Origin: Polytrichum commune
Lineage: Eukaryota; Streptophyta; Polytrichopsida; Polytrichales; Polytrichaceae
DNA length: 64,000 bases
Assembly: GCA_950295325.1 (NCBI GenBank)
Contig: OX485805.1
Span: forward strand, 25,285,501-25,349,500
Direction of reading: 5' to 3'
Position numbers and translations under genes: made by a program. Of the stretch, positions 14,855 through 58,835 are shown one piece after another. The notes beneath the pieces were generated by a model. The model was not told the DNA's origin and ran no database searches. It saw nothing but the letters and a program-made list of their open reading frames with translations. Position 1 is the stretch's first letter. Every line of letters begins with the position of its first letter.

Positions 14855-16084
14855 TCAAATATTTTCCACGTCTTGCATTCCAAAACCTTTGCCAAGAAGG
14901 TAGCCAACTACAGAGGGGAAATGAAGGTCTTTCTCCTCCCATCCCCACTCCTTCCATGTTTGCCAACCTTTGGAAGGGAAATAGTATTCGGAAAGATTAT
15001 GCATTATCTTATGTCTCTTAAAGTCCAACCCGTATGAGCTAGGAGACATGACGTATGCACCAAACACCAATACTGGTTCCAACGCCTGCAATCCTTCAAG
15101 CATATGAATGTCCTCCTCATGTAACTCTACTCTAGTATATCTTAGGTCCAACATCTTTAGGTTTGTCAGTTTACTCATGTCTGACAACCGACATAGCGAT
15201 TCACAGCCCTGCAAATTGATATCTGTCAGTGCACGTAAATCTCCAAGGCCTTGCAAACTAGTCAGTTGTTTGTTCCAACATGCGTTGATAACTTCTAATT
15301 GCTCCAATCCACTAAGGTTCAGTATCTTTGTTATGCCCAAGTGATAAATGTTCAACTCACGAAGACACTGAAGCCCAGTAAGACTAGGAAGCTTGGACAA
15401 TCGTTGGCATAAAATTAGACTTAATGATTTCAAACCAACCAAGCCGTCCAGTCCTGGAACTTCATCTATATCCAACGTATGACATTCCAGTGTATGAAGG
15501 CGCTTCACAGCAGTAAGACTCGGTAGCTTCGAAAGTTTCCGATTCTCTATCAAGACCAATGACAGTAAACCAACCAGGCGGTCTAGTCCACAAACTTCAA
15601 CCAATTTCCCGCACCCACGTATATTGAGCGATTGTAGGTTGTTGGGCCCTAATCTCACAATATCCAACGCCACAATCTGGACAAGCTCCACTTCTTGCAG
15701 AGATGTACAGCTCCTCAAATCCAAGTCTGAAGTGAGAACATACCTGAGCTTGAGCGATACCAAGTTGGTGCACAAAGCAAGGACGTCCCGCTCAAACACA
15801 ACACTACCAATTACTACCAGAACTTCAAGTGCTGCTGGTAGTTGTCCTACACAAAATCTACGATTGCCATATTCACAAACCATCTCGAGATAAGTCATGG
15901 ATTTCAGCCCTTCCAAGCCCTCAATTGAAAACTTCGATGCAGAAATTCTCAAATCTATTTTCACAGTTAAGCTTCTCAACCGAATGAGGTCTTTCAAATT
16001 CAAAACTTCAGGTAATTTGAACCAAAATTCTAGCTTCAAGACCACAAGGTTCGTGCAATATTTCCATTCGATTGTCGTGAGATT
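14855..16084 (-). other. LRR-coding stretch of TNL copy 1 downstream of the stop
   Basis: After the TAG the same reading frame runs open to 14,855. The repeats follow LxxLxxLxL spacing (for example LRSLTVKIDL, LKSLSLILCQRLSKLPSLTGL, LREL) and end in a Trp-rich tail (GWQTWKEWGWEEKDL). The sequence from about 14,855 to 15,094 has no counterpart in copy 2, so this copy preserves the ancestral 3' end. Confidence 0.85.
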
Positions 16085-19000: not shown

Positions 19001-19200
19001 AAAAATGGAAAGCGATGGCGTCCCTCTAGGTCCACACACAATTGCTCTACAAATTCCTGCTTTTGAGCTCCACTATGGCTCAAGAATATTTTATGTTGAC
19101 GGAGCAATATTGGGTCCTCATACTTGAGATTAATGGACCTGTGTTGGCAAGTGAAAGGCATTTCAAAATTCACAAGGTGAAAAATACATTGAAGCCACAT
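14855..19200 (-). pseudogene. TIR-NB-ARC-LRR (TNL) immune receptor, copy 1, with in-frame stop before the LRR
   Basis: TNLs are intracellular plant immune receptors; the TIR domain cleaves NAD+. Four exons with GT-AG, phase-0 introns fit: 19,200-18,532 (TIR), 17,903-17,646 (P-loop), 17,369-16,722 (rest of NB-ARC) and 16,348-14,855. The TIR spans residues about 36-205 (IFLSHSG, PFFDKRPSSLPKGERFP) and keeps the candidate catalytic Glu in SKWPMIEL (residue 111). NB-ARC shows GVGGMGKT, kinase-2 FLTIDNVWDD, RNBS-B GSWVIITSRF, a GLPL-like HYHPLSLKALG and an MHD-like SIHDLYHEF. A TAG at 16,087-16,085 then interrupts exon 4; the same frame continues through about ten LRRs to a natural-looking C-terminus (about 1,020 codons if uninterrupted). 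The predicted product is 612 residues of TIR-NB-ARC. It may be a pseudogene or a truncated TN protein. Paralogous to the gene at 52.2-56.2 kb. Confidence 0.92.
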
Positions 19201-21354
19201 AAGGACAAATACATGACAATATAATGAAAGAATAGAAAAATACGAAAATTGCTTCTCAATCCTACAATCAACTTGATGGATTTACTTGTTTATCTTCCTG
19301 CTTTTGTTAGATGTAGCCATCTTCAAACTGAATGATTATTACAAAAGTGGTGTAAAAACCTAAAAACCAACCATGTCAATTGGTAAATGATTAGAGTACA
19401 ATCTCCTACATAGACCAAACAACACAACTCTACAACTATGCATCATAAACAAATGAAGTATATTTAAGATATACATTTTCAACAAGTTTCGATTGATCAT
19501 GTCACATAGTTTTGCAAGCCTCAAAGCTTAACAAGACGGCTTGCACAACCATTCAAACATTGCAAACTTTGCTTGCTCTAATGTGTAGAGATTGCAAGGT
19601 AGGTTGCCCAAAACCGAAAGGGTAGAGAGAGATGGGGTCCCCTCTGTACCACTCTACCCAAGAGTGAATCAAAATAGACCAATATTTTTCAAAGACAACC
19701 GTCCCCTGCAATTAGGCACACTTCAGAACCATGCGGCAGATAAAACTTCACACTCACTATTGACAACTTCAAGAACATTTCAAATATGGAATCAAACTGC
19801 AGGCATACCAAGATACACTCAAAGCATAAGCTAATGCAGTTTGGGAATGTTTGGAGCCGCTGAGACAAGCACATGATATTCATGCAGTTTAAGGGGTACC
19901 TGGGCTCTCGATAAAGGTTGTTCTAAGTCCTCATCAAAGGTCTTGAGAGAACTGAGAACAACCTGCGAAAGGAGAACATGAACGACTCCTCTGCTATTGA
20001 GATTTGATTTTTCTTTTACTGCGCAAGAAGGTTGTGACGAAATTTGTGATTGGGATGTGCAGCTCCCACACCATAGCCGTGTCTGTAAATTCAAACTTTT
20101 AGTACTTGCCCTTTCACAAGGTACAACAAATGAAGTGTTACGCCGATCTCCACAGCCGGAGCTGATGGTAGATATATATTAGTGAAATAGGTTGTAAGGA
20201 TAGAGTTCCAAACAAACAGAACACAATCTGCTCTTGTTTGTCGGGAGCCCTAGGTTGATCGAGACTACATCATCAACACTCGTACCCCTTCACGGAACAC
20301 GTATTTGGTTGTGCCTGTCTTCCCATCTCAAGCTTTTAAGTTGACACTTACATGCTTAAGAAATGGAAATTGATTGTGCACATAAGAATGATAACCAAGA
20401 ACTTGGAATTTAACACACTAACATTGATTAACATCCCTCGCATATCAACCTTGTAGTACACTATTACTATTAGCCAAGCACAAAAAATAAACTCTCGGTA
20501 CAGGACTTCGTGCACTCACACTTCCGGTCGGTATTTCTCAGCGCTTACCAATGAGAACTTGTCACATTTGTTCCAACATGTATACATGACACAACACAGA
20601 CCAATACTTTGAAGTCTTCCCTAGTCTCAGTTGTCTGGACATATTCCTTTTCCGACTATGGCAACTCTAGTCACCCATGACACTTAAATGCTTAAGAAAT
20701 AAATGATGGTTGTGCATATAAGATCGATAACCAAATACTAATCTTGTGGAACCCGGAATTAAAGAGACTCACCTTGCTTACAAATCAAATTCTGTGCAAA
20801 TTTATGAAGGAAGTTAGACATCAATGCCCCAACGAGTGTTGATGGCTACATAAATCACCCAACTTGGCCCATTGATTAACATCCCTCGCATCCCAACCTC
20901 CTAATACAATATGTACATATATCAAGTTAGACCAAGCCGTCGTAGTTTTGAGCCTTTAAGATATGAATGACAATGGTGATTTGTGCAAGCTACACATGAT
21001 TGAACAATTCTAAGGAATATGTCAACATAAACTATAAATATCATGACAGAAAGTTGAGGTCGGCCTAGGGGATGCTATGAATGAGAAAGGGTTCACTCTA
21101 GGTTTAGCTTGTCTGTAAATCGGCTTGTGCACTCATAGAATAGTCGGTTGGTGTAATAACATGTCTTGTGCCAAATCTAAAAGAATTAGTCTCTATACTC
21201 TATATCTATACTCCATATCCAATGTACATCTCTCACATCCCAACCTCCTAGTACACTATGTACATTGGACTAGGTACACTAAGGGCATTTCTTAATCGTA
21301 GAACCTAGGAACCATGGATTGCATGAGTAATACCTAATAAAATGAGCTTCTATT
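19201..21354. promoter_or_regulatory. 5' flank of TNL copy 1 (putative promoter region), otherwise gene-less
   Basis: No coding sequence is supported here. The region is conserved with the flank of TNL copy 2, which shows only that it was duplicated with the gene. I did not find a convincing TATA box. Confidence 0.3.
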
Positions 21355-35031: not shown

Positions 35032-35039
35032 TTTAATTC
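35032..35039. repeat. target-site duplication, left copy (tttaattc)
   Basis: Eight bases identical to 46,551-46,558. The uninterrupted MITE at 60.7 kb has one copy of the corresponding sequence (tttatttc on the same strand sense), as expected for an empty site. Eight-base duplications are a hallmark of hAT insertion. Confidence 0.95.
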
Positions 35040-35120
35040 CAGGGTTGTCTATCGCGACGTCATGACGGTGTCGTGCCGTCATGTCAGGTCGTGTCGTGAC
35101 GGACCCCTCCGTCACGACAC
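35040..35120 (+). repeat. left terminal inverted repeat and subterminal hairpins
   Basis: CAGGGTTGTCTAT (35,040-35,052) is followed by two hairpins: CATGACGG/CCGTCATG (35,061-35,068 and 35,076-35,083) and a perfect 12-bp pair GTGTCGTGACGG/CCGTCACGACAC (35,091-35,102 and 35,109-35,120, 6-nt loop). The motif TCGTGACGG recurs at the right end, as expected for subterminal transposase-binding sites. Confidence 0.9.
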
Positions 35121-35324
35121 AATAGGGTCCACGTAGGGTCAACATAGGGGGAATGGACTAGGGTGGGTAAAATACTTACCTTCTTGCCAAGGTGGCGTCC
35201 TATGTGGCAGAAAACGCCGACGTGGATGTGCATATTTCCCTTGCCAAGTAAACCATTTTGCCATTGTGTTTAGGGTTCTGTTAAAATCAAAGTAGAAAAA
35301 TATGACTAAGGAAGGTGTGGGGCG

Positions 35325-35832
35325 GACGGTGGGGCGGACGGGAGAGGGGGGTGGTGCGGACGGCGGAGGGGGGTGGTGCGGACGGACGGGGGGTGGAGCG
35401 GACGGGGGAGGGGGGTGGAGCGGACGGGGGTGGGGCGGACGGAGGGGGGTGGAGTGGACGGGGGTGGGGCGGACGGGGGAGGGGGGTGGAGCGGACGGGG
35501 GTGGGGCGGACGGAGGGGGTGGAGCGGACGGGGGTGGGGCGGACGGAGGGGGGTGGAGCGGACGGAGGGGGGTGGAGCGGACGGGGGAGGGGGGTGGAGC
35601 GGACGGGGGAGGGGGTGGAGCGGACGGGGGTGGGGCGGACGGACGGGGGTGGAGCGGACGACGGAGGGGGGTGGAGCGGACGACGGAGGGGGGTGGAGCG
35701 GACGGGGGAGGGGGTGGAGCGGACGGGGGAGGGGGGTGGAGCGGACAGGGGTGGGGCGGAAGGGGGTTGGGAACGGGGGGGAGAACGCTGGAGCGGACGG
35801 GGGAACGCGGGGGCGGACGGGGGGGACGCGGA
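35325..35832 (+). repeat. G-rich tandem array (unit close to ggagcggacgggggagg)
   Basis: About 20-bp units of gcggacggggg(a/t)gggg repeat for about 500 bp with variable G runs. The many runs of four to six G favour G-quadruplex formation. Long open frames here in several phases are artefacts of the repeat. Confidence 0.92.
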
Positions 35833-36345
35833 GGGCTCCGTCCGCCCCAAGTTCCCTCACGTCCGCCCCACGTTCCCCCGCCGTGCGTTCACGTTCCCAC
35901 ACGTTTCCTAACGTCCGCACCCGTTCCCTACCGCGTTCCCTCCCGTCCGTGCCCGTTCCCCCCCAGTCCGCACCCGTTCCCTTCCCGTCCACCCACGTTC
36001 CCTCCCGTCCGCCCCACGTTCCCTCCCGTCCGCCCCATGTTCCCTCCCGTCCGCGCTACATTCCCCTCCCGTCCGCCCACGTTCCCCTCCCGTCCGCCCA
36101 CGTTCCCTCCCGTCCGCCCCATGTTCCCTCCCGTCCGCCCCATGTTCCCTCCTGTCCGCGCTACGTTCCACTCCCGTCCGCCCGCGTTCCCCTCCAGTCC
36201 GCCCCACGTTCCCCTCCCGTCCGCCCCATGTTCCCGTACGTTCCCTCCCGTCCGCGCTCCGTTCCCTTCCGTCCGCCCGTGTTCCCCTACGTCCGCCCCC
36301 TCGTTCCCTCCGTCCGCCCCCGCGTTCCCACGTTCCCCATACGTC
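35833..36345 (-). repeat. C-rich tandem array, inverted relative to the preceding array (unit close to cgttccctcccgtccgcccc)
   Basis: About 20-bp units of gttccctcccgtccgcccca, whose reverse complement contains the same gcggacggg core as the array to its left. Together they form an imperfect inverted array of about 1 kb directly upstream of the TATA box of the kinase-like gene. Confidence 0.92.
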
Positions 36346-36405
36346 CTTTTCGTGCCCCATGTCAAATCCGACCGGGATCCCATAATGATTGTGCTCCCCT
36401 TTGCC

Positions 36406-36413
36406 TATATAAA
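36406..36413 (+). promoter_or_regulatory. TATA box of the kinase-like gene
   Basis: TATATAAA in a conventional context (gcctatataaagccg), just right of the C-rich array and about 230 bp before the chosen ATG. The intervening leader has two acattcactcactc-type repeats. Confidence 0.7.
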
Positions 36414-36638
36414 GCCGTGGGGTTTTAGTTCCCCTCACTTTCCTCTCCTCCCACCACAAAGGGACCCGAGACCTTGTTGCCGTCCCAAGGACAGCGGCAC
36501 CGTGCGGGTCTCAGGGGGTTTGGGAGGGCAGGGCAAATTGTGGGGGAACCCTCGCAATTTTTTTTCCAGATTCACGCACTCATTTCTACATTCACTCACT
36601 CCTTTTTACATTCACTCACTCACGCGGTTTTTTTCACG

Positions 36639-38514
36639 ATGGAGGGGGAGGACATTGCTCCTTACCAAGACGAGGATACGAGGCTGCACCGTGCTTGGCT
36701 CCAAAGCACTCCACTTGCGCATACTGGAGAGGGTACGGGAAGCGAGGCCGGAAGTGGAAGCACTGCAGCACGTCCCCCACGTCCAGATCCTTTTCGGTTT
36801 GACGAAGAGTTCTTTGCAGTTGGCCATTCAGGAGGCAACCAAACACGTGGAAGCCGTGGGAGTCGGGGAAACAGTGGACATAGAGGGAGAACAGGAAGGG
36901 GACCAAGCTCAGGCAGTTCCACCGATATAAATGCAGCCACTCATGGAGAGTCCGTGCCACCACGATCTCCGACACGGTGGACATCAAGACCGGAGAGCCC
37001 TGCACGTGATGTACCTCAGGGTTCGGAGCATGGTGAAAGACGGGGACAAAAACGCCCAGCAATTTCGGAAGGGACGGAGGAGGGGTCCGGGGTTTCAGGT
37101 TCGCAATCGAGGAAAAGGAAAAATAGAGGCAAACGCGACCCGCGGATCGATGAGGCTCGAAACCATTGTAGGGTCGTGCTGTTGGAGTGGTTTAGAAATA
37201 ACAGCATGGTTTATTTGGAAAAAAAATACCTCAATGATGGTACAAAGGGGTTGGATTTGGTGAGGAACGATTTGATTCTTATTCTCACGGAAGCCACGGC
37301 TGGAGCGGAGTTTGAAGATGCTAGGGGCATGAGCGATTGGGGCACCTGGATTGAACAACAAGCCGTGGAAGCAATCTACAATCCAACAATGGCATATGAT
37401 GCTGTGCATCCTAGCGAGGGAAGTAGTAGTGGCAGGAAGTCCGAGCTGTACATGAAGCTAGAGAATTGGAAAAGAGGCGTAATAGCAGCAAAAGGAACAT
37501 CCGCCCGCAACCTTCCCATTTTTATTGACAGGCAGATGGCAGACAACATTGCCACTCAGGGCCCGCAGGGTGTCATATGGTTGCCTAGGAATGCGGAGAT
37601 CAAAGCCTTGGATAAGGAAATCTTCCAAGGGACCTTTGGAGTGGTGCGGAGAGTCGCAATTCATGGAGCATCATTCATCCCTAGCTGGATAGAGTGGGCT
37701 GGGAAGACCATGAAGGCCACGAATAGTTTGGAGAATCGAAAGGAACGTTCAGTTGAAGCATTGGCGTGTCCAGTAGATCATCCTGGGGTAATCAAGCTAC
37801 AATACCTCAATATGAAAACATACGAATCCTATTCGATGTGGTGGAATGGAGGCTCCTTGAAAAACATGAGGATCTATGACTTCAGCGTTCCGGAAACCCA
37901 CGAGCGCACAATCCTTCACATGCCTGGGGCAGACTTTGAAGCACGGAAACGGTTGGTTGTATATCGAAGGCATCGAGCTTATTTGGCATGGGCTCTAATG
38001 TGCATTGTGGATGTAGTGCACAAGCATGACGTGTTGCACAATGACCTTAATCCCAACAATGTCATGTTGCATTTCCCACAAGACCGTGAGAACACGGTTT
38101 ACATTGGTGTGTGTGATTGGGGCATGGCATCCTGGGGAGGTGAAGACGCACCCTCCAACTATGGAAAAGATTCAGTGGATGAGATGAACAAGCACAAAGC
38201 AAAATACAACTGTGCTGGTCCATAATTATTCCATGTACGAGGGCAGCGTGGAACATCCACCTCTCCGGTGAGGATGGCTCGGAAACATAGGCACACGTTT
38301 CTATCGGAGTCCTTCTCAGTGGGTGCTTTGGCAAAGAAGATTTATGCCAGGGATGCGACTTCCCCCTTGTTTCAGCTAAACAGTGATCCAAATGGCTTGA
38401 ATATGCGGTTTGAGTTAGCATTGGATTCATTGACGAAGACCAATCCAGCGGAAAGGTCAACCATCACACACGTAGTGAACATTTTGAAGTCCCCTCCATA
38501 CAACATGGCTACGC
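36639..38514 (+). pseudogene. protein-kinase-like cargo gene of the hAT element, stop near the APE position
   Basis: ATG at 36,639 follows a TATA box and leader. Residues 1-165 are low-complexity (Gly/Ser/Arg) with a KRKNRGKR nuclear-signal-like cluster at 159-166. Residues 175-300 form an unassigned folded region. A kinase-like domain follows: glycine-loop GTFGVV (331-336), candidate Lys in WAGKTMK (356/359), catalytic-loop HNDLNPNN with Asp469 and Asn474 (HRD changed to HND), and DWG (493-495) in place of DFG. At 38,223-38,225 a TAA follows CAGP; the frame then continues with LFHVRG and a C-lobe-like stretch (SFSVGALAKKIYARD, NPAERSTITHVVNIL) to about 38,510. The stop sits where the APE glutamate is expected. 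So this is a recently broken kinase gene, or a truncated protein. Targets unknown. Confidence 0.78.
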
Positions 38515-38640
38515 GGGGGGCGGACGTAGGGGAACGAGTGCGGACGGGGGCGGGAACGGGTGCGGACTGGGAGGGGAACGGGCGCGGACGGGAGGGAACG
38601 GGTGCGAACAGGGTGGGAACGGGGAGCGGATGGAGGGGTA
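38515..38640 (+). repeat. short G-rich array between the kinase and RING genes
   Basis: Six or so degenerate units of ggaacgggtgcggacggg, the same core as the two large arrays. It starts at the end of the kinase frame, which therefore runs on into repeat-encoded residues. Confidence 0.85.
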
Positions 38641-39113
38641 TACAAGTGGAAGGGACCACTTACATACCCCACTCCACTCCTTGTGGGCGCCCGGACGACC
38701 CTCCTCTACTACAGAGTGCGGGGTTTAGCGGGGTGCTCGGAGGAGTTAAGGATCCCTTTTTTGGGATCCTTTTATACTTTTTTTACTGACCTGTTTGTGG
38801 GTGTGATCCACGTGGACCCGTTCCCTTGTGACGTGGCATATTGCTTTTTTGGCATATTCCTTGTGACGCGCCCAGTCAACTGGCCTCTGCGTGAGCGCTG
38901 GTAGCGGGGTGCTCGAAGGGTATGCTGAATTTTTGTAGTTTAATTTTTAACGACATTTTTGAACTAATTCCACAGCAACACTATTTTGAAGTGTATGCTT
39001 GGATGTTTTGTAGCACTATTATGAAGTGCAATTAGTAATTTAAAAATTAGAGTTCTAGATTAGAATTAGAAACTACAATTTGGGTGGATCCGGCAAGTGA
39101 AGGATTTCCAGAC
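38641..39113 (+). promoter_or_regulatory. upstream region of the RING gene, with a perfect hairpin
   Basis: GGATCCC-TTTTTT-GGGATCC (38,750-38,769) is a perfect 7-bp stem with 6-nt loop. It is followed by an AT-rich stretch with ttttatac. A CACGTG palindrome lies in gatccacgtggacc near 38,808. The motif agcggggtgctcg occurs twice (about 38,728 and 38,904). A terminator for the kinase gene and a promoter for the RING gene would be expected here; neither is proven. Confidence 0.45.
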
Positions 39114-41417
39114 ATGGCAAGTGGAGGATCTAGAGACATGGCAAGTGCAAGTGGAGGATCTGGAGACATGGCAAGTGGGGGATCAGGTTGTCACAGATCA
39201 CATGTACGCAAGGCCGCTGGGTTGGAGTGGGATGTTTATGATGACAACACTCAAAAAGCCAGGGCAGGTTGGGAGAATGTACCACAACCGTGGTCAGTGA
39301 AGACTGCAATGCAGTACGTGGGTTTCCCTCACTTTGATCGGTTGTGGCCAAGACCTTGTCACGAGCGACACTGCAAGGCCATCAGTGCGAGTTATATGCA
39401 GCTTGATGACGTGGAGGCAAAATGGAGATTCCTAACGATACTTAGAAGTATCTCCAATTTGGATAGATGGCCCAAGAGTGCAATTCCAAAGTCGGTGGCG
39501 TGTATGATGTATGCGGAGCACGTGTTGCGAGTTAGGGTGGATTGGTCAAGTTTGGCTACCCTGCATGGTCAAAAATTTGGGGGTATCGGAATTGCATTCA
39601 CTAAATGCACAGTTCCAGATATTCCATACACTCCCGTTCCGGAGTGGTTCAGGAGGAATCCTCGACTAGTGGACGAGCCTGGGGCCCCAATTCCAGAGGG
39701 TCGGGAACCAAAAAAACCACGTAATCGTAAACGACCAGCCAATGACGTGCAGATGGCCATCGAGGAGGCGTTTGAGCATATGGATGAGGGCATGGAGGCA
39801 AATGTCGAGGTCAACAACCTGATCAACGACGTGGTTAACGAGGTCCTAGACGAGGTAAACCTTGGTGAACATGGAGTGGACCCGACGGAGAGCAGAATGG
39901 AGGAATTGCGTAAGCAACATTCGTTGGAAATTCGTGAGTATAAAACGATGATTTTCGAGTTGGAAAATCGAGTTGCAACACTTACGATGGGGGAGGCTAG
40001 CAGTTCAAGTAGTACACCAATTAACCTTCAGTCTTTGGAAGCAGAGAGGGACGCAGCTTTACAGGAGGCCAAGATTGCAAAGTCACAAGCTCTGGAGGTA
40101 TGTATGAGGAATGAAGTAATGCGAGGAAAGATGGAGGCTTTGCAAAAGGAGGTGGTGGACATGCAACAACAACTTCAAGTGGTCAATGAAGTGGTTGTTG
40201 ATCACGAAGCCAAGATTGGCGGACTGGAGGAGCAGAATGCAAGGTTGAAGAAATTCCTGTTGGATGCGATTGTGGAGCGCAAAAATATGAGGACAAGCAC
40301 ATTGCTTGCTATGGCCAAGGCTCATCAATTTGAAGCTGAGTTTGAGAGCATCCAGAAAGAATGGAACCGCAATCAGAGAATGCGGAATATGATGCTCACG
40401 TCATGGCTAGAAGATGAGCAGATGTACCCTAGTAGGTGGGATAGGGATAATGAGTGGACATTGCCAAGCGGGAGCATCGATTGGCGTCAAGTGACCGACC
40501 CAGATCACCATTGGGATGTGACCCAAGTGCATGAATATCCATTCCGCATGAGGGGTGAGTTGTTATGGCCAAATCCACATACAATGGTCTTCGACGGAAC
40601 CGCATGTGCGATTTGCCAATGTCCATTTGACCCAGAGGGATGCTATCAAGTTGGATCATGTGGGGTCCAATTTCATCCACAATGTCTAATAGGGAATATG
40701 ATCAAGAAACGCCAATGTCCTCATTGCAGATCACCCTTCCACCCTCGTTTGTACCTCCAATTTGGCCTTCGGGATTACATGCCTAACGACTGGGTATTAA
40801 AGCCATGGGACTTTCCCTTCGATCTTCAAGAGTTTGATGGAGAGAATGTTGAGTGGAGTTGGTTATACAATTGTGCCAAGGTTGAGCTATGGCACGAGAA
40901 CAGAGATGGCGACTGGACACGGAATGTACGTCAAATTTTGTATGTTGCAGACGAGTTGTATTCCAACAAGCCCCCCGATCATGGCTTGAAAAGATTTTTG
41001 TACCAAACTCTTGAATGGCATTGGGATTCAACCAACAGACAATTAAAGAGAGGCATTCATCCTCCTTGGTACAATGCAGCAGGTCTCGAATCAGTATCGG
41101 AGCATGATTTGGAAGAAGATGTAGATGACATGCCTACGGAACGGGATCCGAGATATGAATTGCAGTTAGAGGTGGGGTACCACAAGAACAGGCTGTAATT
41201 GGCTGCAATTGATGCACTCTTGCATAGAGTTGCGGATGATGTGGTATTGAGATGGCTAAATGGTGGGCCTAGACCACGTAATGCCGTTCCATTGTCTCCT
41301 GGTAGTCGTCCATACCTCACCCGTGGAACAACGCGAAGCATGGAAGCGGGGGAATCATCACGAGCACGACGAGGATCTACTTCAGCTAGAATAGACCTCG
41401 ATTCAGATTCGGATTAG
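39114..41417 (+). pseudogene. RING-finger / coiled-coil cargo gene of the hAT element, late in-frame stop
   Basis: RING proteins are typically E3 ubiquitin ligases. The first ATG in the frame is 39,114; the frame is open slightly further upstream, so a 5' exon is possible. Numbering from this ATG: a short DMASGGSG repeat (1-25), an unassigned folded region (36-180, KWRFLTILRSISNLDRWPKS), a basic patch (KKPRNRKRP), a coiled coil at about 258-428, and a RING at 498-538 (CAIC, then CGVQFHPQC, then CPHC). A C-terminal region of about 150 residues rich in Trp follows. TAA at 41,196-41,198 interrupts the frame, which then stays open for 72 codons and ends in an acidic tail (DLDSDSD). The product lacking this tail (694 residues) might still fold. 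Role in transposition or host regulation unknown. Confidence 0.78.
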
Positions 41418-42287
41418 GCATTTTTGTACCATGTTTAGGAAGTTGTATAGGAACGGATGAAGACTTTGGACACAATGAACATATTTCATGTTCAAAGTAT
41501 ATGTAATATAAAGAGGATTTACCGACAAGTTGTCATTTCTAAGATCGTGTAAAAGATAACATATGGATGCCACATGTTTTAATGTTATTTGAAACATTTA
41601 AAAACTTACTTGAATATTAGTAATTCATATGATAGTCTAACCAAAAGTACTATTGACTACATAGTCAATATTGAATACCACATAAAGATATAATTATATA
41701 AAACGGATAGAAAGGTCCTCAAAAAGAGGATGTCACCAACGAAGCATGTACAATCGAGCAATAGGGGATTGCAATATTTATAAAAGCATATTCTTTAAGA
41801 AGCTCAATAAATAAACATAAAACTCCATTCACAGTAAGAATTATACAAAATAGTAATTAATAAAGGCATAACATGTTATTGGAGATTAATTGCAATGCTA
41901 AGTTGACAACCATATTGTATTTTCAAAATTTTAAAAAACATGCAATAAATAATTTTATTACTATAATAAAATGTTACAACTTCGAAGGTAACGTTCGCTT
42001 TGTGGTCTAAATGTCTTACCGAAGGCCCTAAGGTTGTAACTTGTATCAATTTTGACGTAAGTAATAAATTATGGAAGTACGTGGGAGCACCGAAATACCA
42101 CATTTGTGCAAAACCATTACGTTCGAATCCGTACTGTGGGATCATTTGCTTCGACACATCTTGGGTTCTCTTCAGACTCGTCTGTGCTGCAATCATCATC
42201 CGTTTGGGGAGTCGCGCTCCGAAGATGCAACTCTTGGTCACGTTGTGAGAAAATTATCTTCTAGGTCGGCCGGGAGCCCTCTGCATC
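41418..42287. other. convergent intergenic region inside the hAT element
   Basis: An AT-rich stretch between the 3' ends of the RING gene (plus) and the transposase (minus). Both strands contain AATAAA-like polyadenylation motifs. A block of higher complexity at 42,000-42,250 has an 82-codon plus frame without recognisable motif. Confidence 0.45.
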
Positions 42288-45200
42288 CTATATGCCATTT
42301 TCATCTAGATGTGGTCTACCCTCATCTTCATTGTAGTCTTCAGCAGTAAACGGAAGCGATCTTCCCTGATACCTCTTCCTAGTACGTTTGACACCTCTCG
42401 TAGTTCTCTGACGCCCTCCACCCGTACCACGACTTGAGTGCACTTCATCTCTACTTCCATCTATAAAAGCATCCCCCGTTGTACTTCCGCCTCCAACTCC
42501 AAGGCCACATGTTCCATTGGATTGACTGTGTGGAAGTGAAACTGATGCGGATGGAATTGCAATTGGTATGTTCTCAACAACATGTCGACGAACAGAATGA
42601 CGACGTGGCGCCTCTGTAGTAACATTTCTTAAAACATTGTGTATAGCAACCAAAGTAGCACCCACCGCAGTTGCACGTAAAACACCCAATCTAGAAGTAT
42701 TGGCAATACTTCGAGTGAGAGGACGACGTTGACCTTGTGCATGCACTTGCACCGTAGAGGTTGATGCAGTTCTTTGAAGAGCACGGAATCGAGTTGTAGG
42801 TATTTCAGGAACATTGGGTGTTTGATCTTCTATACGATGGTTGGATATGAGGGAGGCGTCCATGGATTCAGAATGTACTCGGGCTGGAAATGGATCCTGT
42901 TGAACGTGCGTTGGCTCATTTGCGGGTAGTACATTGTCACCTTCACCAAAAGAAAGATAATCGCTCCGAGGTTGCAAGGAATCTACTTCAATTCCTACAT
43001 TCTCACTTGCCCCCATAGCAACATTATGGGCAGGGCGAAACCCTTGTCCAATGTGGAGAGTTTCAAAAGGCGGTCCTCCAATAGACCCCTCATGATCGTC
43101 ATGCATTCCGTCGTTATGTTGGGGGACATCCGGTTCATCAAAATCAAACACCCCAAGGTTTCCATCACTACCATTGCCATCCTCATCTTCTGAATCATGA
43201 TTCTCGGAATCGAGGTCATCCAAATCAAAGTCGATGTCATCAACATTGTTGTCAACATCATTTCCGGCACTATCATTTGGATCCACGTCATCTTCGTTGT
43301 CATCTTCTTCGTCAAGGTCATCGTCAGAATGGACCTCATTCAATTCGTACCATTGCGCAGGTCTTGGGCCCCTCCGATGTCGAATGAGCCTACTATTGGT
43401 ATATATGTAGACGAGGTCCTCGGCACGACTATGCTTCAAGCGATTGCGACTCTTGTTGTGAACATATGAGTACATGCTCCAATTGCGTTCACATGCGGAT
43501 GCGGAACATACTTGTGCAAGGATACGTCTTGCTATTGTTTGGAGGGCTTTAGCTCCACCTCCCATTGCATCCCACCATTCATGGAGAGGTGCGGCATGCA
43601 CGCTCGGGTCAGTAGAATCAGCAAAAGGCCCTCGATTTTCAAGGAAATCTTGGTACTGGTGGAGGATTTGGACATAAGTGTCCTCATCTTGAGCAAGCCT
43701 GCGAAGAACTCGATTTAGGATTGTCCTCGAATTCTCATCCTCATGGAGTGGGGCCCAACCACGTAGAAGCGGATTTAACATCGCTCCAGCCCAATGTAGA
43801 TCATTCAACATCAACCTCCATCTATTTTCAAACGTTAGCATAGCATTTGCAGCAAGCTCAGGGCTTAAGCGAAATGGAGGTTTACTGAATCCACGAATAT
43901 GGGTTTGTAAATCATGCATGACCCTCCAAGCCATTCCCATTGCAGGCGCCTTGCCATCAAATACACGAAGAGCTTTAACAACCGGGATCACCACATACAA
44001 GAAATTTTCGCACGTGTTCCAGAATCCATCAGAACGTATAAAGCTTCGCACAGCAGAGCCCTTCATGTAAGAGGTGCGAGATCTCCTCCTCATATCACGC
44101 ATTAGAGTAGGCCAATCCTCATCAACCACCATTCTTTCCAAAGCATTGCGTACTTGAAGAAGACGATCTATCATGATGAAGTTCGTTGCAAAACGGGTCT
44201 CTACAGGTAGGCGGAGTGAGAGATTTGGTGACAACCTCTGGAATATAGCTTGAGAAGCATGATGGTTTTTGATAAAAACACAAATATGGCGCGCCTTTTT
44301 TACCAACTTTTTCACCCATTCCTCCTTCCCCCAATCTTCTAAGAGGAGATCTAGGCAATGCGCAGCACATCCTTGAAAATATAGATCGGGATTTGCTTGA
44401 ATCAAGTCGCGAGCAGCGGAGGCCATAACTGGGGCATTGTCGGTGCAAATCTGGACCACATTATGTCGACCAACCTTTTCCACAAATGGTTGAATTTGAG
44501 CAGCAACGTATACATGATCCTTGTGATTTCCCGTGGTATCAATGGTACCCAAGAAAACATCTCCCTTTGTGCCGCATTGGAGAATGTTTAGGAGAGGTCG
44601 GTTTTGCACGTTGTCCCATCCATCACAACATATTGTAACACCGTATTTTTCAACGGAATTCCCCATCTTCTCCTTCACTTGCCTATCTAGGTCAACCTTT
44701 TTATCAGTTAACAACTTCGTACGGATGGCATTGTACGATGGTGGTGTGTAGGCTGGCATTCGATGACGGGCAGTTTCACGCACAGCATGAACAAATGCAG
44801 GATGTCTCACAATGTTGAAAGGAATGTTAGCTTCATAAAAAGCCGTTGCCCATGCTCTATCAAGGAGTTGTTTTGTTGACACATTGAACCCCTCCGTTAT
44901 GTTGAGTTGACGTAGTTCACGAGGAGGTGTGCCATATATCACAACATCAGAATGTTGAGTGGATTGGGACATAAGCAAAGGCTCTGTTTCACTAATTACG
45001 GAGTCCGCTATAATAGGCTCCAGAGGTACAATATCTAGCACCGGAGAGTCCTCATTTACAATGCCTACATGTAAGGGCACAATGCTCAATGTTCAAACAA
45101 GACCCTAATATGCGGGGGTACCATCCTACATGTGGAAACATCACAAGTACCCCCTACAGGAGGTCTATAACCAAGGTGGGCCAACATTCTATTTCCTCGG

Positions 45201-45310
45201 TAAGATATGACGAACGGGCAAAACCTACATTTAACCTGCCTTTGTGATTTACCGGGAACCATCCCCTTATCCTCGTACCAATGATCCCATGCATCATTTC
45301 GGCGTGGCAT
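42288..45310 (-). CDS. hAT transposase (BED finger, DUF659, hAT dimerisation domain)
   Basis: Cut-and-paste transposase acting in the nucleus on the element's terminal repeats. An exon starting after a GCAG acceptor (45,325) has ATG at 45,310 and encodes a BED-type finger (VKCRFCPF, MLAHLGY, GTCDVSTC). The main frame (45,089-42,288, 933 codons) shows a DUF659 region with catalytic Asp156 (CCDGWDN) and Asp217 (CTDNAP), C241xxH244 (GCAAHC), and the C-terminal hAT domain with Glu534 (SACERNWS). An acidic stretch (about 585-665) and a basic C-terminal tail follow. The BED exon and main frame overlap by 4 bp in different phases near 45,086-45,089, so either a small intron (an acceptor tgtag lies near 45,077) or a one-base lesion joins them. 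No premature stop interrupts the catalytic frame. Confidence 0.92.
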
Positions 45311-45540
45311 GACTTCAACAAAACCTGCAAATAAAAACAAGTTAAAGCAAGTAACTTTGATCGCATACTAGGTCCTGTTCAAGAGTGCCACAAGGGCAAC
45401 CCTAATTCACAGTCACTAGATTGGACAAAGTATCCTCTGCATTCGGGTCTCACGCATTCAATCCTCACTCCTCAAAGGAGATTCAAAAGACTTGAGACAC
45501 ACTATGTCAGTGGAGGCAAAAATGGCACCTTGAACCCTCA

Positions 45541-45548
45541 ATTTATAG
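45541..45548 (-). promoter_or_regulatory. TATA box of the hAT transposase gene
   Basis: CTATAAAT on the minus strand, about 230 bp upstream of the transposase ATG and directly beside the right G-rich array. The intervening leader contains an intron ending at 45,325. The array-TATA-leader order mirrors that of the kinase-like gene. Confidence 0.6.
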
Positions 45549-45557
45549 TATTCGAAT

Positions 45558-46320
45558 CGGACTGGGGAGCGGACGGAAGGGGGGGGGGACCGGACGAGGG
45601 AGCGGACGGACGGGGGGGAGCGGACGAGGGAGCGGACGGACGGGGGGGGGGAGCGGACGGGGGGGGAGCGGACGGGGGAGCGGAAGGGGGAGCGGACGGA
45701 CGGGGGGGAGCGGACGGGGGGGCGGACGGGGAAGCGGACGGAGGGGGGGGGGGGGAGCGGACAAGGGAGCGGACAGGGGGGGGGGGGGAGCGGACAAGGG
45801 AGCGGACAGGGGGGCGGACGGAGGGGGGGGGGAGCGGACAAGGGAGCGGACGGGGGGGAGCGGACGGGGGAGCGGAAGGGGGAGCGGACGGACGGGGGGG
45901 GGGGAGCGGACGGGGAAGCGGACAGAGGGGGGGAGCGGACGGGGAAGCGGACAGAGGGGGGGAGCGGACGGGGAAGCGGACAGAGGGGGGGAGCGGACGG
46001 GGGGGGCGGACGGGGGAGCGGAAAGGGGAGCGGACTGACGGGGGGGGAGCGGACGGGGGGGCGGACGGGGAAGCGGACGGAGGGGGGGGGAGTGGACGGG
46101 GGGGGGGGGGGGGCGGACGGGGGAGCGGACGGGGGTGGGGCGGACGGAGGGGGGTGGAGCGGACGGGGGAGGGGGGGGCGGACGGGGGAGCGGACGGACG
46201 GGGGGGGAGGGGGCGGACGGGAGAGGGGGGAGCGGACGGGGTTGGGAACGGGAGCGGACGGGGGGGAACGGTGGCGAATGGGGATTGTGAACGGGAGCGG
46301 ACGGGGGGGCGGACGGGCTC
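45558..46320 (+). repeat. G-rich tandem array near the right end (unit close to ggggagcggacggg)
   Basis: Units of 14-20 bp with core gagcggacgggg repeat for about 760 bp with G runs of up to about 14. The core is the same as in the left arrays. Open frames across it on both strands are repeat artefacts. Run lengths may be inaccurate in an assembly. Confidence 0.92.
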
Positions 46321-46472
46321 TAGTAAATTTTTCCCCACTTTACCTTTACTTTGCTGACATGTCATCACACGTGGACATTGTAAATCCTACGTGTCAGAAA
46401 TGGGTTAATGTAATTACACAAAAAAATCGGTAAAATTCAAGTCCGTCAGGATAAAGACAGCATCCGGCATAA

Positions 46473-46550
46473 TGTCGTGACGGATACGTGTCGTGACGGC
46501 ACGACATTATGTCGGGATTACCCTCCGTCACGACACAATAGACAACCCTG
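46473..46550 (-). repeat. right terminal inverted repeat and subterminal motifs
   Basis: ATAGACAACCCTG (46,538-46,550) is the reverse complement of the left terminus. Inside it, TGTCGTGACGG occurs at 46,473-46,483 and 46,488-46,499, and CCGTCACGACAC at 46,525-46,536, making an inverted pair like the one at the left end. Confidence 0.92.
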
Positions 46551-46558
46551 TTTAATTC
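46551..46558. repeat. target-site duplication, right copy (tttaattc)
   Basis: Identical to 35,032-35,039; beyond it the MITE sequence resumes (aaatgattttaatcc), matching the uninterrupted copy at 60.7 kb. Confidence 0.95.
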
Positions 46559-52238: not shown

Positions 52239-55200
52239 TCATTGTTTCCAGAGGCGTCGACAACTTCTAATTGCTCCAGATCCACTGAGGTTTGGTATCT
52301 CTGTTATGCCCAAGCCAGGAATTTTCACCTCACGAAGATACTGAAGCCCAGTAACACTAGGAAGCTTTGACAATCGTCGGCAACCACTTAAACTTAATGA
52401 TTTCAAACCAACCAAGCCCTCCAATCCTGGAACTTCATCTATATCCAAAGAAATACATTTCAATGTATGAAGGCGCTTCAGAGCAGTAAGACTCGGCAAC
52501 TTCGAAAGTTTCCGATTCTCTATCAAGACCAATGATAGTAAGCTAACCAGGCGGTCTAGTCCACAAACTTCAACCAATCTCCAACACCAACTTATAATGA
52601 GCGATTTTAGGTTGGGCCCTAATCTCACAATTACCAACGCCTCAATGCTGGTAAGCTCTACCTTTTGCAGAGATGTACAGCCCTTCAAATCCAAGTCTGA
52701 AGTGTAAACTTTCCTGAGCTTGAGCGATACCAAGTTGGTGCACAAAGCAAGGACATGCCGCTCAAACACAACAGCAGCATGCACTTCCAGAACTTTAAGT
52801 GCTGCTGGTAGTTGTCCTACAGAAGCTCCACGCTCCCCACGGCCACAAACCATCTTGAAATAAGTCAAGGTTTTTAGCCCTTCCAAGCCCTCAATTGAAA
52901 ACTTCGATGCAGAAATTCCAACTTCTGTTTTCACAGTTAAGCTTCTCAACCGAATGAGGTCTTTGAAATTCAAAACTCCAGATAATTCGTACTCAAAATC
53001 TAGCTTCAAGACCACAAGGTTGGTGCAATATTTCCATTCCATCATCCTTAAACTCATAATCCCGGATTTCTTCATAATTCCATAAGTCTCCGAAATACAA
53101 ACTCGTGTCAACTTCTTCCAACTACTCCTTGACTCCTCCTCGAGCTGTGTAGGAAGTGCATCCGTAGCATACACCCACCTCCGCTCCTCCATGTCCGAGG
53201 CCATTAATTTCCCTTCCGCTTCCAATGTTGCAAACTCACGATGCAGATTATGTATGCTCACTTCCCCAGAGCTCATCTCGGCCTGCTCCAACAAGGCACT
53301 ATCCACCAGATGCCGCAACTACAATTCCATCACAAAACAATCACATTTCAATCCATCAAACACGGGCATCAAATTTCCATGTAAACCCTCCAAATCATTG
53401 AATCCAAAATCTCTCAAAACTTCCTATTCTCATAACTTCCTATTCTCATGCTTAACCATATTCATACTTCCATTATAGTTCAACCTATCTCTCCAATGAT
53501 TATGATGTTTGACAAACGTAAGCCTTTGAATTGTGCATTTTGTATGTTCTACAAGGATTGCTCGTCAATCTTGAAGGAGCTGCAATCCAAGAAATATTCT
53601 ATTAATAAGTACAAAACAATTGAAACTTCTATTAAGATCTTAAGATAAATTAAGATCTTCTTATATTTATATTCTTGTTTGGACTTGAGGAAACAAAGAG
53701 GGGGATTGACTGCATACCCATTCTTCAATCACTTTCTCCTCCTTATTGTGAACAAGACTCAACCACTCCATCAAATCCTGCTTGCAGTCGTAAGTACTTG
53801 ATGGGGAAAACATTGTTAAATCCATAAATAACTCTTGCTCCCTTTTAGGCAATCGGTCCAAATTGCTTCTAAGAATAATAAACAAAGGATTTACTGGTTC
53901 TTGCGAATTGCTGGATTCTTTGAGTTTTTGTAAGTCCTTCATCCACACCGAAGGTTCTTTACCTCCATATTGTAGAAAAGCACCCAAGGCTTTCAATGAT
54001 AATGGATGATAATGCGAACCTCGACCTTCACCCTTGCCAAAGTAGCAACTTTTGATACACTCCTCAATAGCATCTACATCTTCCGTATTTTCAAACGTTT
54101 TTCCATTTGCTGCATGGTACAAAAACAACTTTCTTGCATCATCCTTGTCAAGTTCAGGCATCTCAAAACATGCACTTTCATCTATGTTAAGACTTTCGAG
54201 AGTCTTTTTAAAGCGGGATGTTATAATCACCCAACTTCCCTCAACAAAAGGTGCTCGAAGAAACAATTTCCCTTGCTCCAATGATTCAAAATCATCCCAA
54301 ACGTTGTCTATGGTTAGGAAGGATTTTTGCTTCCAAATCTCAAATTTCAAAAGGACGTCTTCACACTGCAAATACACCCAAATCATGAGTGGAAGGCACA
54401 ATAAAAGCCTTTGGGGTCCAACACATTGTACATCTTCTCCTAGAACAAAAATAGATTGGAATAGTATATTTAGAGCATTAAATGGACAAAAGAATATCAA
54501 GTGAAACATTGGGAGTTGCTTTGCGACTTTTTTGACAACATGGTGGAATTCAATACTCTAATTTTTCTATTTAGTCCTTGTCAACATCTCATTCAAGAAA
54601 TTAGCATCCTAAGTTGCCTTCATTTGCATGTAATCTTGAGGTAAGCAGTAGTCGTCTTACTAACTCATGAAGCTCACATGCTTCATATTGAATTCATGAA
54701 AATGTTTATGACTTTAAAGAACAAATACCTTGTCCTCCCCCACTTCTTGAACAACCTCCGCACTTGTATTTGTCAATGTGGTCAATACCTTCTTCACTAA
54801 CTGGTGTTTACTTTGCTTTCCCAATTCCACATGGCACACCTTCCCATCAAATTCTCCATCCATTTCGTTACACATCATCTTGCAGATTTGAGTCTTTCCC
54901 ATTCCGCCCACACCATACAAGCCAATCACACGTACGCCTGGAATCTTGGTGGAATTTGGAGTGTTTCCAAAATGGTCTCGTATAACCTATTCAAGTCACA
55001 TCATAATGTCCACCAAATTAGAACTCCATGTTAGTTTGAAGGGCTTAAACTAGAATTATTTTAATGACATTGAGTCATTCTGCTCAGAACGGAAAGAAAC
55101 AACCTTGCGTTTATACAAAATATAGTTATAGTTCCAGATTTTAGTATTAATGATATTATATTGAACAAACAAATTCTTCTTGAAGACCGACATAATGATT

Positions 55201-56228
55201 AAAGATCGCGAATTTGGTTTCAATATTGTTGCAAAGTCAAGAGTGCAAGAGTGATTGATCCAAATTGTAGCATTGAGACACCATACATCATGCTTTCATC
55301 CAAAGGTTAGCATACAAATTACAATCTTTAAAATAACATTTTCAAACCAATCCCACAAAATTAATGTTTTAAGTGAAATAGATTACATGCATGGAATGAT
55401 TGAGAAAATTATGCATCAATTTATTTATGATTGAGAAAACAATGCATCGTAGCTTAAATTTGGAACGTACATGTACATTTATAGTTCCAGTCTAACTAAC
55501 AAATTATGGAAAACATGGATCAACCAAGAATTAACCTTCAAGAATATCATCAATTATATTACCTGGCATAATTTTGAGCGCCCTTGAACATGCGATTCAT
55601 CATATTGAATGTCTGATGGAATAGACTTGCAGATATTTGACACAATCTCATTTCGATAAGCAACAACTTCTTTTGAGTGTCGGTCATACACCAAACCATT
55701 GAAAGCACCAAACAACTTCATAGATTCTTTCCATTCACCCAATTTGATTCGGTCATCAGCTTTGGCCATCGTCTCCCACTCCTTGAACCATATCTTTTGT
55801 GTACAATTATCAGAAAATTCTTCCACATTGAGCCCAAAAAAAAGAGGAAGAATCTTCAAACTTGGATCTTTTTTAGTTGCTTGCATGAAGCCATTGAGTT
55901 CAATCATTGGCCACTTTGATGAAAAGTACTCCTTAGAAACCACCACCACCATCATTTTGCAACGTGCTACAGCAACTTTGATAAGATTTGGAAACCTTTC
56001 TCCCTTCGGCAAGCTCGAAGGTCGTTTGTCAAAAAATGGAAAGCGATGGCGGCTCTCTAGGTCCACACACAATTGCTCTACAAATTCCTTTTGAACTCCA
56101 CTATGGCTCAAGAATATGTTATGATGTTGGAGCAATATTGGGTCCTCATGCTTGAGATGAATTGACCTGTGTTGGCAAGCGAAAGGCATTTCAAAATTTT
56201 CAAGGTGCAAAATACATTGAAGCCACAT
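52239..56228 (-). pseudogene. TIR-NB-ARC-LRR (TNL) immune receptor, copy 2, frameshifted and 3'-truncated
   Basis: Same four-exon structure as copy 1: 56,228-55,563 (TIR, 222 codons), 54,986-54,729, 54,365-53,718 and 53,318-52,239; exons 2 and 3 have identical lengths (258 and 648 bp) in both copies. The TIR keeps SKWPMIEL (Glu110); NB-ARC keeps GVGGMGKT and FLTIDNVWDD. The winged-helix MHD-like motif reads SIHNLHREF, so the Asp present in copy 1 (SIHD) is Asn here. The position of the copy-1 stop is open (Met codon). An extra base near 52,279 shifts the LRR frame, giving a short novel tail and a stop at 52,239 (predicted 883 residues). LRR homology continues out of frame to about 52,075, where the duplicon ends. 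It may still encode a TIR-NB-ARC protein with a shortened LRR. Confidence 0.9.
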
Positions 56229-58835
56229 AAGGACAAATACACGACAATATATTGAATGAATAGGAAAATAGGAAAACTCCTTCTCAATCCTACAACCAAC
56301 TTGATGGATTTACCTGTCGACCTTCCCTCTTTTGATAAATGTAGCCATCTTCCGAGTGAATGTTTATTCAAAAAGTGGTGTAAAAACCTGAAAATCAACC
56401 ATGTCAATTGGCAGATCATCATACTACAATCTCCTACATAGTCTAGACAACGCAATTCTACAAATGTGCACCATAAACAAATAAACTATATTTTAGAGAC
56501 ATGTTTTCAACAAGTTTGGAGTGACCATGTCACAAAGTCTTGCAAGGATCAAAGCTTAACAAAACGGCTTGCACAACCATTCAAACATTGCAAACTGTGC
56601 TTGTTCTAGTGCATAGAGTTTGCAAGGTAGGTCGCTCAGAACCTAAAAGGCAGAGAGAGATGGGGTCCCCTCTGTACCACTCATCCCAAACGTGTATCAA
56701 AAGAAACCATACCAATATCAAAGGCAACCAACCATCCCCTGCAATTAGTCACACTTCAGAACCATGCAGCAGACTAAACTTCACACTCACTCTTCACAGC
56801 TTCAAGAAAATTTCAGATGTAGAGAACTGAGAACAACCTGTGAAAGGAGAACAGGAACGACTCCTCTGCTCTTCGAATTTGATTTCTTTTACTGCGCAAG
56901 AAGGTTGCCACAAAATTTGTGATTGGGATGTGTAGCTCCACACCATAGCCGTGTCTGTAAAATCAAACTTTCAGTACTTGCCCTTTCACAAGTTACAACA
57001 AATGAAGTGTTACACCGATCTCCATAGCCGGAGCTGATGGGAGATATATATTAGTGAAATAGGTTGTAAGGATAGAGTTTCAAACAAACAGAACACACTC
57101 CGCTCCTGTTTGTGGGGGACCCTAGGTTAATCGAGACTAGATCATCAGAACTCGTACCCCTCCCTGGTGCCAAAAAGGTTCAACCAAAATAAAAGCAACA
57201 CAGGGGATCCACGTTATGAGAAAAAGTAAGTGCAACCCGACCACATGGCTCAAGTGCAGACTTATGCATAATGCCTGCCAAGTGCAAAAGAAAACTCCTC
57301 TGGAAGAAGGTCTTCCTCTTATAAACGTTTGCAGACAGCGTTGTGGTGACTAACGCATTTATTTGTGGCTGCCTTCCCATCTCAAGATTCTAAGTTAACA
57401 AGTTTCACAGTGACGAACCTACTTGCAAGTCATTTTCTCCTACTCGCTACAGGCAATGGTCCACATGTTGGTTGAGATTCACCTGCAAGTGCCACTTCCT
57501 CCCGCTTGTTCGCATAATTAAAATAAACTAGTGACAAATTAGAAGATTGCTCCACTTCTCGTGCCCCTAACCAAGAAAATACCACTTGGAAGGTTTTTAT
57601 TTTCTTGATGATTTTTTAAACGGGGACACTAGAAGCAAGGGTAAAACAACCTTTCGTCAAAGGAACCCCACGAACGAAGCCCCACTAGGCAGGTGACGGG
57701 GCTATTCGCCACAACACTTAGATGCTTCATAATGGAATGCAATCATCAACTAGGTCAATCTCAAATCAGCCAATAATCACCCATAACACTTAGATGCTTG
57801 AGAAATGAAAGGTGATTGTGCATATAAGAACGATAACCAAGTACTACTCTTGTGAAACCTGGAATTTAAGCAACTCACCTTGCTTACAAATCAAATATGG
57901 TGCAGATTCATGAAGAGAGTTGGAGATCAAAGCCCCCACAAGTGTCGACGGCTGCCAAAATCACCCAACTTGGCCCATAGATTAACATCCCTTGCATCCC
58001 AACCTCGCAGTATACTATTACTATTAGCCAAGCACAAAAGTTAAACTACCGGTACAGGACTTTGTGCACTCACACTTGCAGTTGGTATTTCTGATTGCTT
58101 ACAAATGAGAACTTGTCACATCTAGTCTAACCTGTATACATGACACAACACATACCAATACTTTCAAGTCTTCCCTAGTCTCAGTTGTCTAGACAGATCT
58201 CATTTCCGACTATGGCCACTCTAGTCACCCATGAAACTTAGATGCTTGAGAAATGAAAGGTGGTTGTGTATTTAACATCAATAACCAAGTACTACTCTTG
58301 TGGAACCTCGAATTTAATACTCACCTTGCTAACAAATCAAATCCGGTGCAGATTTATGAAGGGAGTCAGACATCGAAGCCCCCACCATTATTGATGGCTA
58401 CATAATTAATTTGGCCCTTCAATTCACATCCCTCGCATCCCAACCTCCTAATACAATATGTACATATATCAAGTTAGACCAAGCCGTGGTAGCTTTGAGC
58501 CTTTAAGATATGAATGACAATGGTGATTTGTGCAAGCTACACATGGTCGAACAATTGTTTGGATTATGTCAAGATAAACTATAAATATCACGAGAGAAAG
58601 ATGAGGTCGGCCTAGGGGATGCTATGAATGAGAGAGGGTTCACTCTAGGTTTAGCTTGTCTGTAAATCGACTTGTGCACTATCATAGAATAATCAGTCGG
58701 TGTATTAACGTGTTTTGTGCCAAGTCTAAGAGAATTAGTCCCTATACTCTATTTCTATACTCCATATCCAATGTACAGTGGGGTGACACCGAAATTGGCA
58801 CCTTGTGCAATTCCAAGGATAGTGCCCACATTGTT
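56229..58835. promoter_or_regulatory. 5' flank of TNL copy 2, otherwise gene-less
   Basis: Conserved with the flank of copy 1 (19.2-21.3 kb) apart from insertions. No coding sequence is supported. A direct repeat of cttagatgcttgagaaatgaaagg occurs at about 57,788 and 58,238. Confidence 0.3.

Follow-up and report, generated by a model that had tools for sequence, protein, structure and literature searches.

The 64,000-nucleotide stretch of Polytrichum commune DNA analysed here (contig C3:25285501–25349500, referred to below as the window) contains, at positions 35040–46550, an 11,511 bp hAT transposon that encodes, between a single pair of ends, a transposase, a protein-kinase-like protein and a RING-finger/coiled-coil protein. 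An earlier note on this DNA, made from the letters alone, had suggested that the kinase and RING genes could be long-term parts of the element. Comparison with copies elsewhere in the genome supports this suggestion through the linkage of the genes at many places and through similar purifying selection. The element very probably represents a three-gene autonomous hAT lineage of which the kinase-like and RING-like genes are lasting parts, with a damaged copy in the window. To our knowledge, the well-studied hATs have a single transposase gene.

The ends of the window element are as the earlier note had described them. A perfect 13 bp terminal inverted repeat is formed by CAGGGTTGTCTAT at 35040–35052 (plus strand) and its reverse complement at 46538–46550 (minus strand), and the octamer TTTAATTC on both flanks (35032–35039 and 46551–46558) constitutes a perfect target duplication. 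Both subterminal zones (35055–35119 on the left and 46488–46536 on the right) fold as hairpins, with DNA folding z scores of −4.80 and −5.35, respectively, and none of 200 shuffled sequences was as stable. The two long additional genes lie on the strand opposite the transposase, again in agreement with the note.

The genome search covered a 408 Mb assembly of 64 contigs, with matches almost wholly on seven large contigs. A 27-base pattern of the left end (C or T at two positions, no mismatch) has 227 matches compared with none for the reversed control, and the 46 bases of the right end have 468 matches with at most three mismatches, compared with none for the control. Five elements were read whole: the window copy, the copies designated C7 and C2, B93 (C1:21.9 Mb) and D80 (C1:46.4 Mb). 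The three genes are present in every one; four are flanked by perfect 8 bp duplications and D80 by one matching at seven of eight positions. The ends of 13 further elements were read over 40 bases each, in a non-random sample with both ends among the listed matches and genes between them. The duplication is perfect in twelve and absent in one (C3:38.0 Mb), giving 16 perfect duplications among 18 elements overall, one of seven positions in eight and one without a match. By the gene places in the search lists, 11 of these 13 carry all three genes, the exceptions being C3:13.8 Mb, without a RING match, and C1:72.7 Mb, without a transposase-core match; the search that the earlier note had recommended, for more elements with the same ends and genes, thus turned out positive. 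Full copies measure 15.7–16.3 kb (14.6 kb between the ends of D80), and the length of 11.5 kb given previously is correct for the window copy and too short for the full-length element in the copies read. End pairs 740 to 1,033 bp apart, known from end positions only, resemble short derivatives (C1:42257020–42257759, C3:5056663–5057433, C2:6612055–6612870 and C1:65096522–65097554). Protein copies are 98–99% identical within the family, which indicates that it has been active recently.

Gene linkage was assessed with short cores of 80–83 residues and is restricted to family-level places. The best 150 of 178 candidates were scored for the kinase core and, in searches with long queries, the best 82 of 229 (kinase), 64 of 255 (RING) and 49 of 283 (transposase). 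Among 137 kinase rows, 27 were dropped (four second pieces of split genes and 23 distant rows of up to 51% identity), as were 17 of 122 transposase rows (one second piece and 16 distant rows of up to 45%) and 27 of 127 RING rows (seven second pieces and 20 distant rows of up to 57%). The remaining places number 110 for the kinase, 105 for the transposase and 100 for the RING protein. Within 25 kb of the 105 transposase places, a RING core is found at 93, a kinase core at 86, both at 79 and neither at five; within 16 kb, a RING core accompanies 91 transposase places, compared with 0.8 expected by chance. These counts are lower bounds, since for one transposase that seemed to lack partners (C1:22160061) the long-query search shows an adjacent RING gene. 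The possibility that the accessory genes are single-copy host genes found elsewhere, which had been named as a refutation, is not borne out by these data, in which most transposase places have both partners, and no high-identity single-copy host kinase was found in the genome among the best 150 of 178 candidates. Below the family kinase rows (at least 86% for complete cores) there is one 51% fragment, followed by rows of 31–45%.

The set is conserved more strictly than its order. With every place turned so that the transposase reads on the minus strand, 85 of 105 have the RING gene on its left, on the plus strand. In this group of 85, the kinase is on the left and plus strand at 35, left and minus at 26, right and minus at nine and right and plus at one, with none within 16 kb at the remaining 14; the single right-plus kinase (C3:30037991) probably belongs to a neighbouring element. 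The same gene order across copies, as expected in the earlier note, was therefore not found. The three main arrangements imply at least two inversions or moves of the kinase gene, with the set of genes preserved throughout. Between subfamilies that are 71–82% identical, the place or strand of the kinase differs and the gene set is retained. A 135 bp module (L001:7420–7555, with matches in L003 and L005) recurs at several places in the elements; it is 95–99% identical between subfamilies, while the gene regions there differ by ∼7–18% in DNA, which suggests that parts have been exchanged between elements.

Selection was estimated from the ratio of nonsynonymous to synonymous substitution rates (dN/dS) between C7 and copies of the distant subfamily. 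The ratio is 0.50 for the kinase (95% limits 0.37–0.68; 0.45 with limits 0.28–0.77 for the kinase domain alone; copy L022), 0.46 for the RING gene (0.36–0.60; L026) and 0.54 for the transposase (0.43–0.70; L028). The matched stretch is free of stops in L022 and L028 and contains a single frameshift and a single stop in L026. Thus, the kinase, RING and transposase genes are under similar purifying selection between subfamilies.

In the four copies of types A and B that were read, an array of GCGGAC or GTCCGC units precedes each gene, and for 11 of the 12 genes a TATA box lies no more than ∼90 bp from the last exact unit. In these types the arrays and TATA boxes follow the genes irrespective of place or strand. 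In D80 the exact hexamers are few (one or two per gene) and more distant, and degenerate G/C-rich related repeats were recognized by eye before the TATA boxes. The arrays between the ends and the genes also serve as subterminal repeats.

In the window copy, an array of GCGGAC units turning to GTCCGC/CGTTCC units (35318–36330) and a TATA box (TATATAAA, 36406–36413, plus strand) precede the kinase-like gene (36639–38225, plus strand). This gene ends after 528 codons at a TAA (38223–38225) at which C7, with 635 codons, reads on; the remainder of the frame (38226–38511, plus strand) continues as far as the junction of an adjoining internal deletion, by which 4.8 kb is missing between the kinase and RING genes relative to full copies. 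A remnant GCGGAC/GGAACG array (38515–38640) follows, and a TATA match is lacking ahead of the RING gene. The RING/coiled-coil gene (39114–41198, plus strand) is cut to 694 codons by a TAA at 41196–41198, 73 codons early with respect to the 767 codons of C7, and its frame would end at 41417. The transposase gene (42120–45310, minus strand; 1065 codons in C7) has a frameshift near 45084–45092, and its longer matched piece contains two stops; it is preceded by a TATA box (CTATAAAT, 45541–45548, minus strand) and by a GCGGAC array that extends from its promoter towards the right end (45560–46320). The description of the cargo genes as full-length-looking consequently fails for this copy, in which both carry premature stops.

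The transposase matches DUF659 (E = 1.9e-35) and Dimer_Tnp_hAT (E = 3.2e-10), both over the Pfam cut-off. Its residues Asp157, Asp218, Cys242–His245 and Glu535 in the 934-residue frame are those recognized previously, with each aspartate and the glutamate then numbered one too low. A BED-type zinc finger at the N-terminus, as is usual, if not universal, in hAT transposases, scores below the Pfam cut-off (zf-BED, E = 0.018). Together with the 8 bp duplication and the short terminal inverted repeat, the D/D/CxxH/E residues and the C-terminal dimerization domain are features of hAT elements; no family of Mutator-like elements is among the Pfam matches of the transposase, which does not place it in that superfamily. 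A search of the PDB with the single transposase sequence returned nothing.

The kinase-like protein has the glycine loop, catalytic lysine and HxD and DxG aspartates of eukaryotic protein kinases, with HND in place of HRD and DWG in place of DFG. Lys356, Asp469, Asn474 and Asp493 are invariant in seven aligned sequences, including one relative of 23% identity. A profile of the family matches solved kinases with a best E of 2.2e-4. The PDB search with the single kinase sequence gave nothing at E = 0.01, and 14 stretches that fit the pattern in an IMG/VR search with the kinase alignment were not confirmed. The RING protein has a finger that resembles those of RING-H2 ligases, with a profile match to RNF38 (E = 3.2e-5), and differs from them in that it lacks the full set of eight zinc ligands; it may instead be a C4HC3 finger that uses the preceding cysteine. 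A long stretch of this protein is modelled as helix in a low-confidence prediction.

A plausible division of labour is that the transposase would cut and paste the element and that the kinase and RING proteins, acting in trans, would enable transposition or sustain it. Their target may be the transposase or a host factor of silencing or repair, which the kinase would phosphorylate and the RING protein would scaffold or ubiquitinate, such that the pair could contribute to phosphorylation and ubiquitin control of transposase or silencing. A single protein encoded by the element could bind the GCGGAC-type arrays and would thereby regulate all three genes together. A host factor seems slightly more likely than the transposase as the target, since a RING and kinase pair resembles counter-defence more than dosage control.

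Two versions of this role can be distinguished; they divide the question of function between them and do not compete with the view that the genes are lasting parts. In one, which is tenable if tentative, the accessory genes would counter host silencing or repair checkpoints, by analogy with VANC of VANDAL elements. Mutator-like elements carry extra open reading frames that include this anti-silencing factor (PMC6446971), a sequence-specific protein that acts on its own family would be well served by arrays of one motif before the genes, and the family has recently been active. In the other, to which we give a slightly smaller share, the accessory genes would control only the transposase of the element, phosphorylation activating it and ubiquitin turning it over, and would set copy number without a host target. 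The residence of all three genes in the same element, with the same kind of promoter array and similar selection, agrees with this version, as does the convergent RING–transposase pair, which is the most constant linkage (85 of 105 places). On the other hand, Ac of maize has a single transcript and one putative transposase (PMC3260210), so a hAT can work without extra genes.

Several observations weigh against regarding the accessory genes as lasting and functional components. The Pfam Pkinase match (E = 2.6e-6, 27.5 bits) is below the curated cut-off of 31.7. The predicted structures are poor, with a mean predicted local distance difference test score (pLDDT) of 31.9 and a predicted template-modelling score (pTM) of 0.22 for the kinase (seven aligned sequences) and a mean pLDDT of 35.2 for the RING protein (three sequences), probably because the alignments are shallow. 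The fourth zinc ligand, the histidine of RING-H2, is replaced by alanine in six and by valine in one of seven copies, which makes RING ligase activity doubtful. Ratios of dN/dS near 0.5 correspond to moderate constraint, and the limits do not exclude 1 for the RING finger together with the adjoining C-terminal part (0.65, 0.35–1.32) or for the transposase core between C7 and L029 (0.84, 0.51–1.51). Within subfamilies, the ratios are 0.98 (L022–D80) and 1.45 (L024–L025) for the kinase, 0.71 (D80–L026) for the RING gene and 0.84 (D80–L028), 1.25 (C7–C2) and 5.6 (C7–window, with few changes) for the transposase; values near or above 1 are expected there if inserted copies drift, and drift also raises the values between subfamilies. 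The RING gene is most often broken, with 19 of 67 matched rows free of stops, compared with 51 of 83 for the kinase and 36 of 49 for the transposase (hand count of the rows listed). One or both partner cores are missing within 25 kb at 26 of 105 transposase places, and neither partner lies within 25 kb at 15 of 110 kinase places.

A further open reading frame in the spacer (L001:6562–7185, ∼165–207 codons) is present in C7, C2, B93 and D80, four of the five elements read, and was lost from the window copy through the deletion. It has no Pfam match. Its dN/dS is 0.84–1.03 in five divergent pairs (165 codons) and 0.65 (limits 0.13–9) for C7–C2, stops interrupt two of the four copies and the frame of C7 is changed at its 3′ end relative to the others. 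On these grounds it was rejected as a working fourth gene and kept as a control, and it looks like a captured and neutral scrap. The limits for the divergent pairs (lowest 0.44, highest 2.40) overlap those of the kinase and RING genes, which likewise tells against a firm reading of these two as constrained, and the contrast is thus suggestive only and not decisive.

These data also bear on gene capture, in which two host genes would have entered a hAT on one occasion and been carried along since as neutral passengers. Capture seems to occur in this family, given the neutral-looking spacer frame, and acquisition of host sequence is known from Mutator-like elements (PMC6446971); the overlapping limits of the spacer frame and the frequent breakage of the RING gene would also agree with passengers. 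Neutral passengers are, however, not expected to show ratios near 0.5 with upper limits of 0.68 (kinase) and 0.60 (RING), like the transposase, to remain together through inversion and relocation of the kinase, or to have an array and TATA box for each gene in most copies read. The absence of a high-identity host kinase from the candidates scored and the pairwise linkage kept in distant relatives (see below) argue in the same direction, and we consider capture improbable. Less probable still is that the two genes are carried for the benefit of the plant: proteins of both kinds are common in plant immunity, but many copies decay after insertion as transposons generally do, to judge by premature stops in many rows. 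Coincidence of the ends and the gene grouping, in favour of which nothing was found, can be dismissed in the face of 227 left ends with none in the control, perfect duplications at 16 of 18 elements and 91 transposase places with a RING gene within 16 kb where 0.8 would be expected.

The comparison was extended beyond the family to ten distant loci, three of which were fetched over a longer stretch. L009, picked for its kinase, also has a transposase, and L011, picked for its transposase, also has a kinase; in both the kinase is divergent to the transposase, which is a further arrangement. In L015, picked for adjacent matches, the RING and transposase genes are convergent, as in the family. 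The longer pieces in these three decayed loci have identities of ∼24–44%, so that the association of the genes, at least in pairs, is much older than the present family. Within the stretches fetched, distant loci never have more than two of the three genes and the other seven of the ten have only one, and this too counts against a fixed set of three. No convincing combination of inverted repeat and duplication was found at the ends of the distant relatives; an end pair of L015 (10 of 14 and 7 of 8) is a weak candidate and L009 holds one family-type end core internally. We tentatively suggest that an old class of 'equipped' hATs may exist in plants of this lineage, with a fixed kinase and RING-like toolkit for counter-defence or host-cell control and one shared array-based circuit.

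A second, unrelated multi-gene repeat family, represented by L013 (C6:9376500–9384000), contains a related kinase of 21–23% identity with the same catalytic residues. Among the 150 of 178 candidates scored for the kinase core, all nine distant relatives with open frames of at least 200 residues belong to this family. Each of its 11 kinase places with at least 88% identity is 1.5–1.9 kb away from a partner open reading frame with the motif IWDGNHRFKAW, which we take to be ParB-like and which has no Pfam match; this frame gave 1012 first-look candidates, of which the best 150 were scored and all 150 matched. Mobile elements in this genome may share and trade signalling enzymes.

Two regions with copies of the hAT element differ from the usual layout. 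At C1:21867927–21967593, three B-type copies lie ∼51 and 34 kb apart with equal identities and equal numbers of stops, and the region was therefore probably duplicated after insertion. A 31.7 kb element with a perfect duplication (C2:66794681–66826366) has its kinase and RING genes 22 kb apart, for which reason it probably holds a nested insertion. In the window, sets of immune-receptor-like stretches flank the element on the minus strand, one at 14855–19281 (TIR, NB-ARC and LRR by Pfam) and a similar one at 52239–56309 (TIR and LRR by Pfam, with an NB-ARC-like stretch recognized by eye only).

Among known systems, Ac of maize is 4.6 kb in length with one 3.8 kb transcript and one putative transposase of 807 residues, and Ac/Ds shares with the moss element a hAT transposase, short inverted ends, 8 bp duplications, subterminal repeats and many short non-autonomous relatives (PMC3260210). 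The present element differs in its length of ∼16 kb and in having three genes with separate promoter-like sequences. MuDR and VANDAL/Hiun are autonomous plant DNA transposons with extra open reading frames beside the transposase (mudrB, vanB and vanC, one of which is anti-silencing); they belong to another transposase superfamily, and no kinase is named for them in the available part of the text (PMC6446971). The same part of that source lists a Mutator-like element of Phytophthora with a C3HC4 RING finger, apparently as the type of zinc finger and not as a separate gene. The fungal ToxhAT is hAT-type by name, 14 kb in length and carries another gene (PMC12506042); it differs in being known for one effector gene, ToxA, and not for a group of accessory genes retained across subfamilies. 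A literature search found no hAT with a kinase and a RING gene; most subscription papers and Repbase were outside its scope, so that novelty is unproven.

If the interpretation is correct, the element would be a natural DNA transposon with a signalling toolkit, comparable with the accessory genes of MuDR and VANDAL and based on other biochemistry. The question of whether a transposon can phosphorylate or ubiquitinate the silencing machinery, or the transposase that it encodes, becomes accessible to experiment, and this one genome supplies about a hundred copies and numerous short derivatives.

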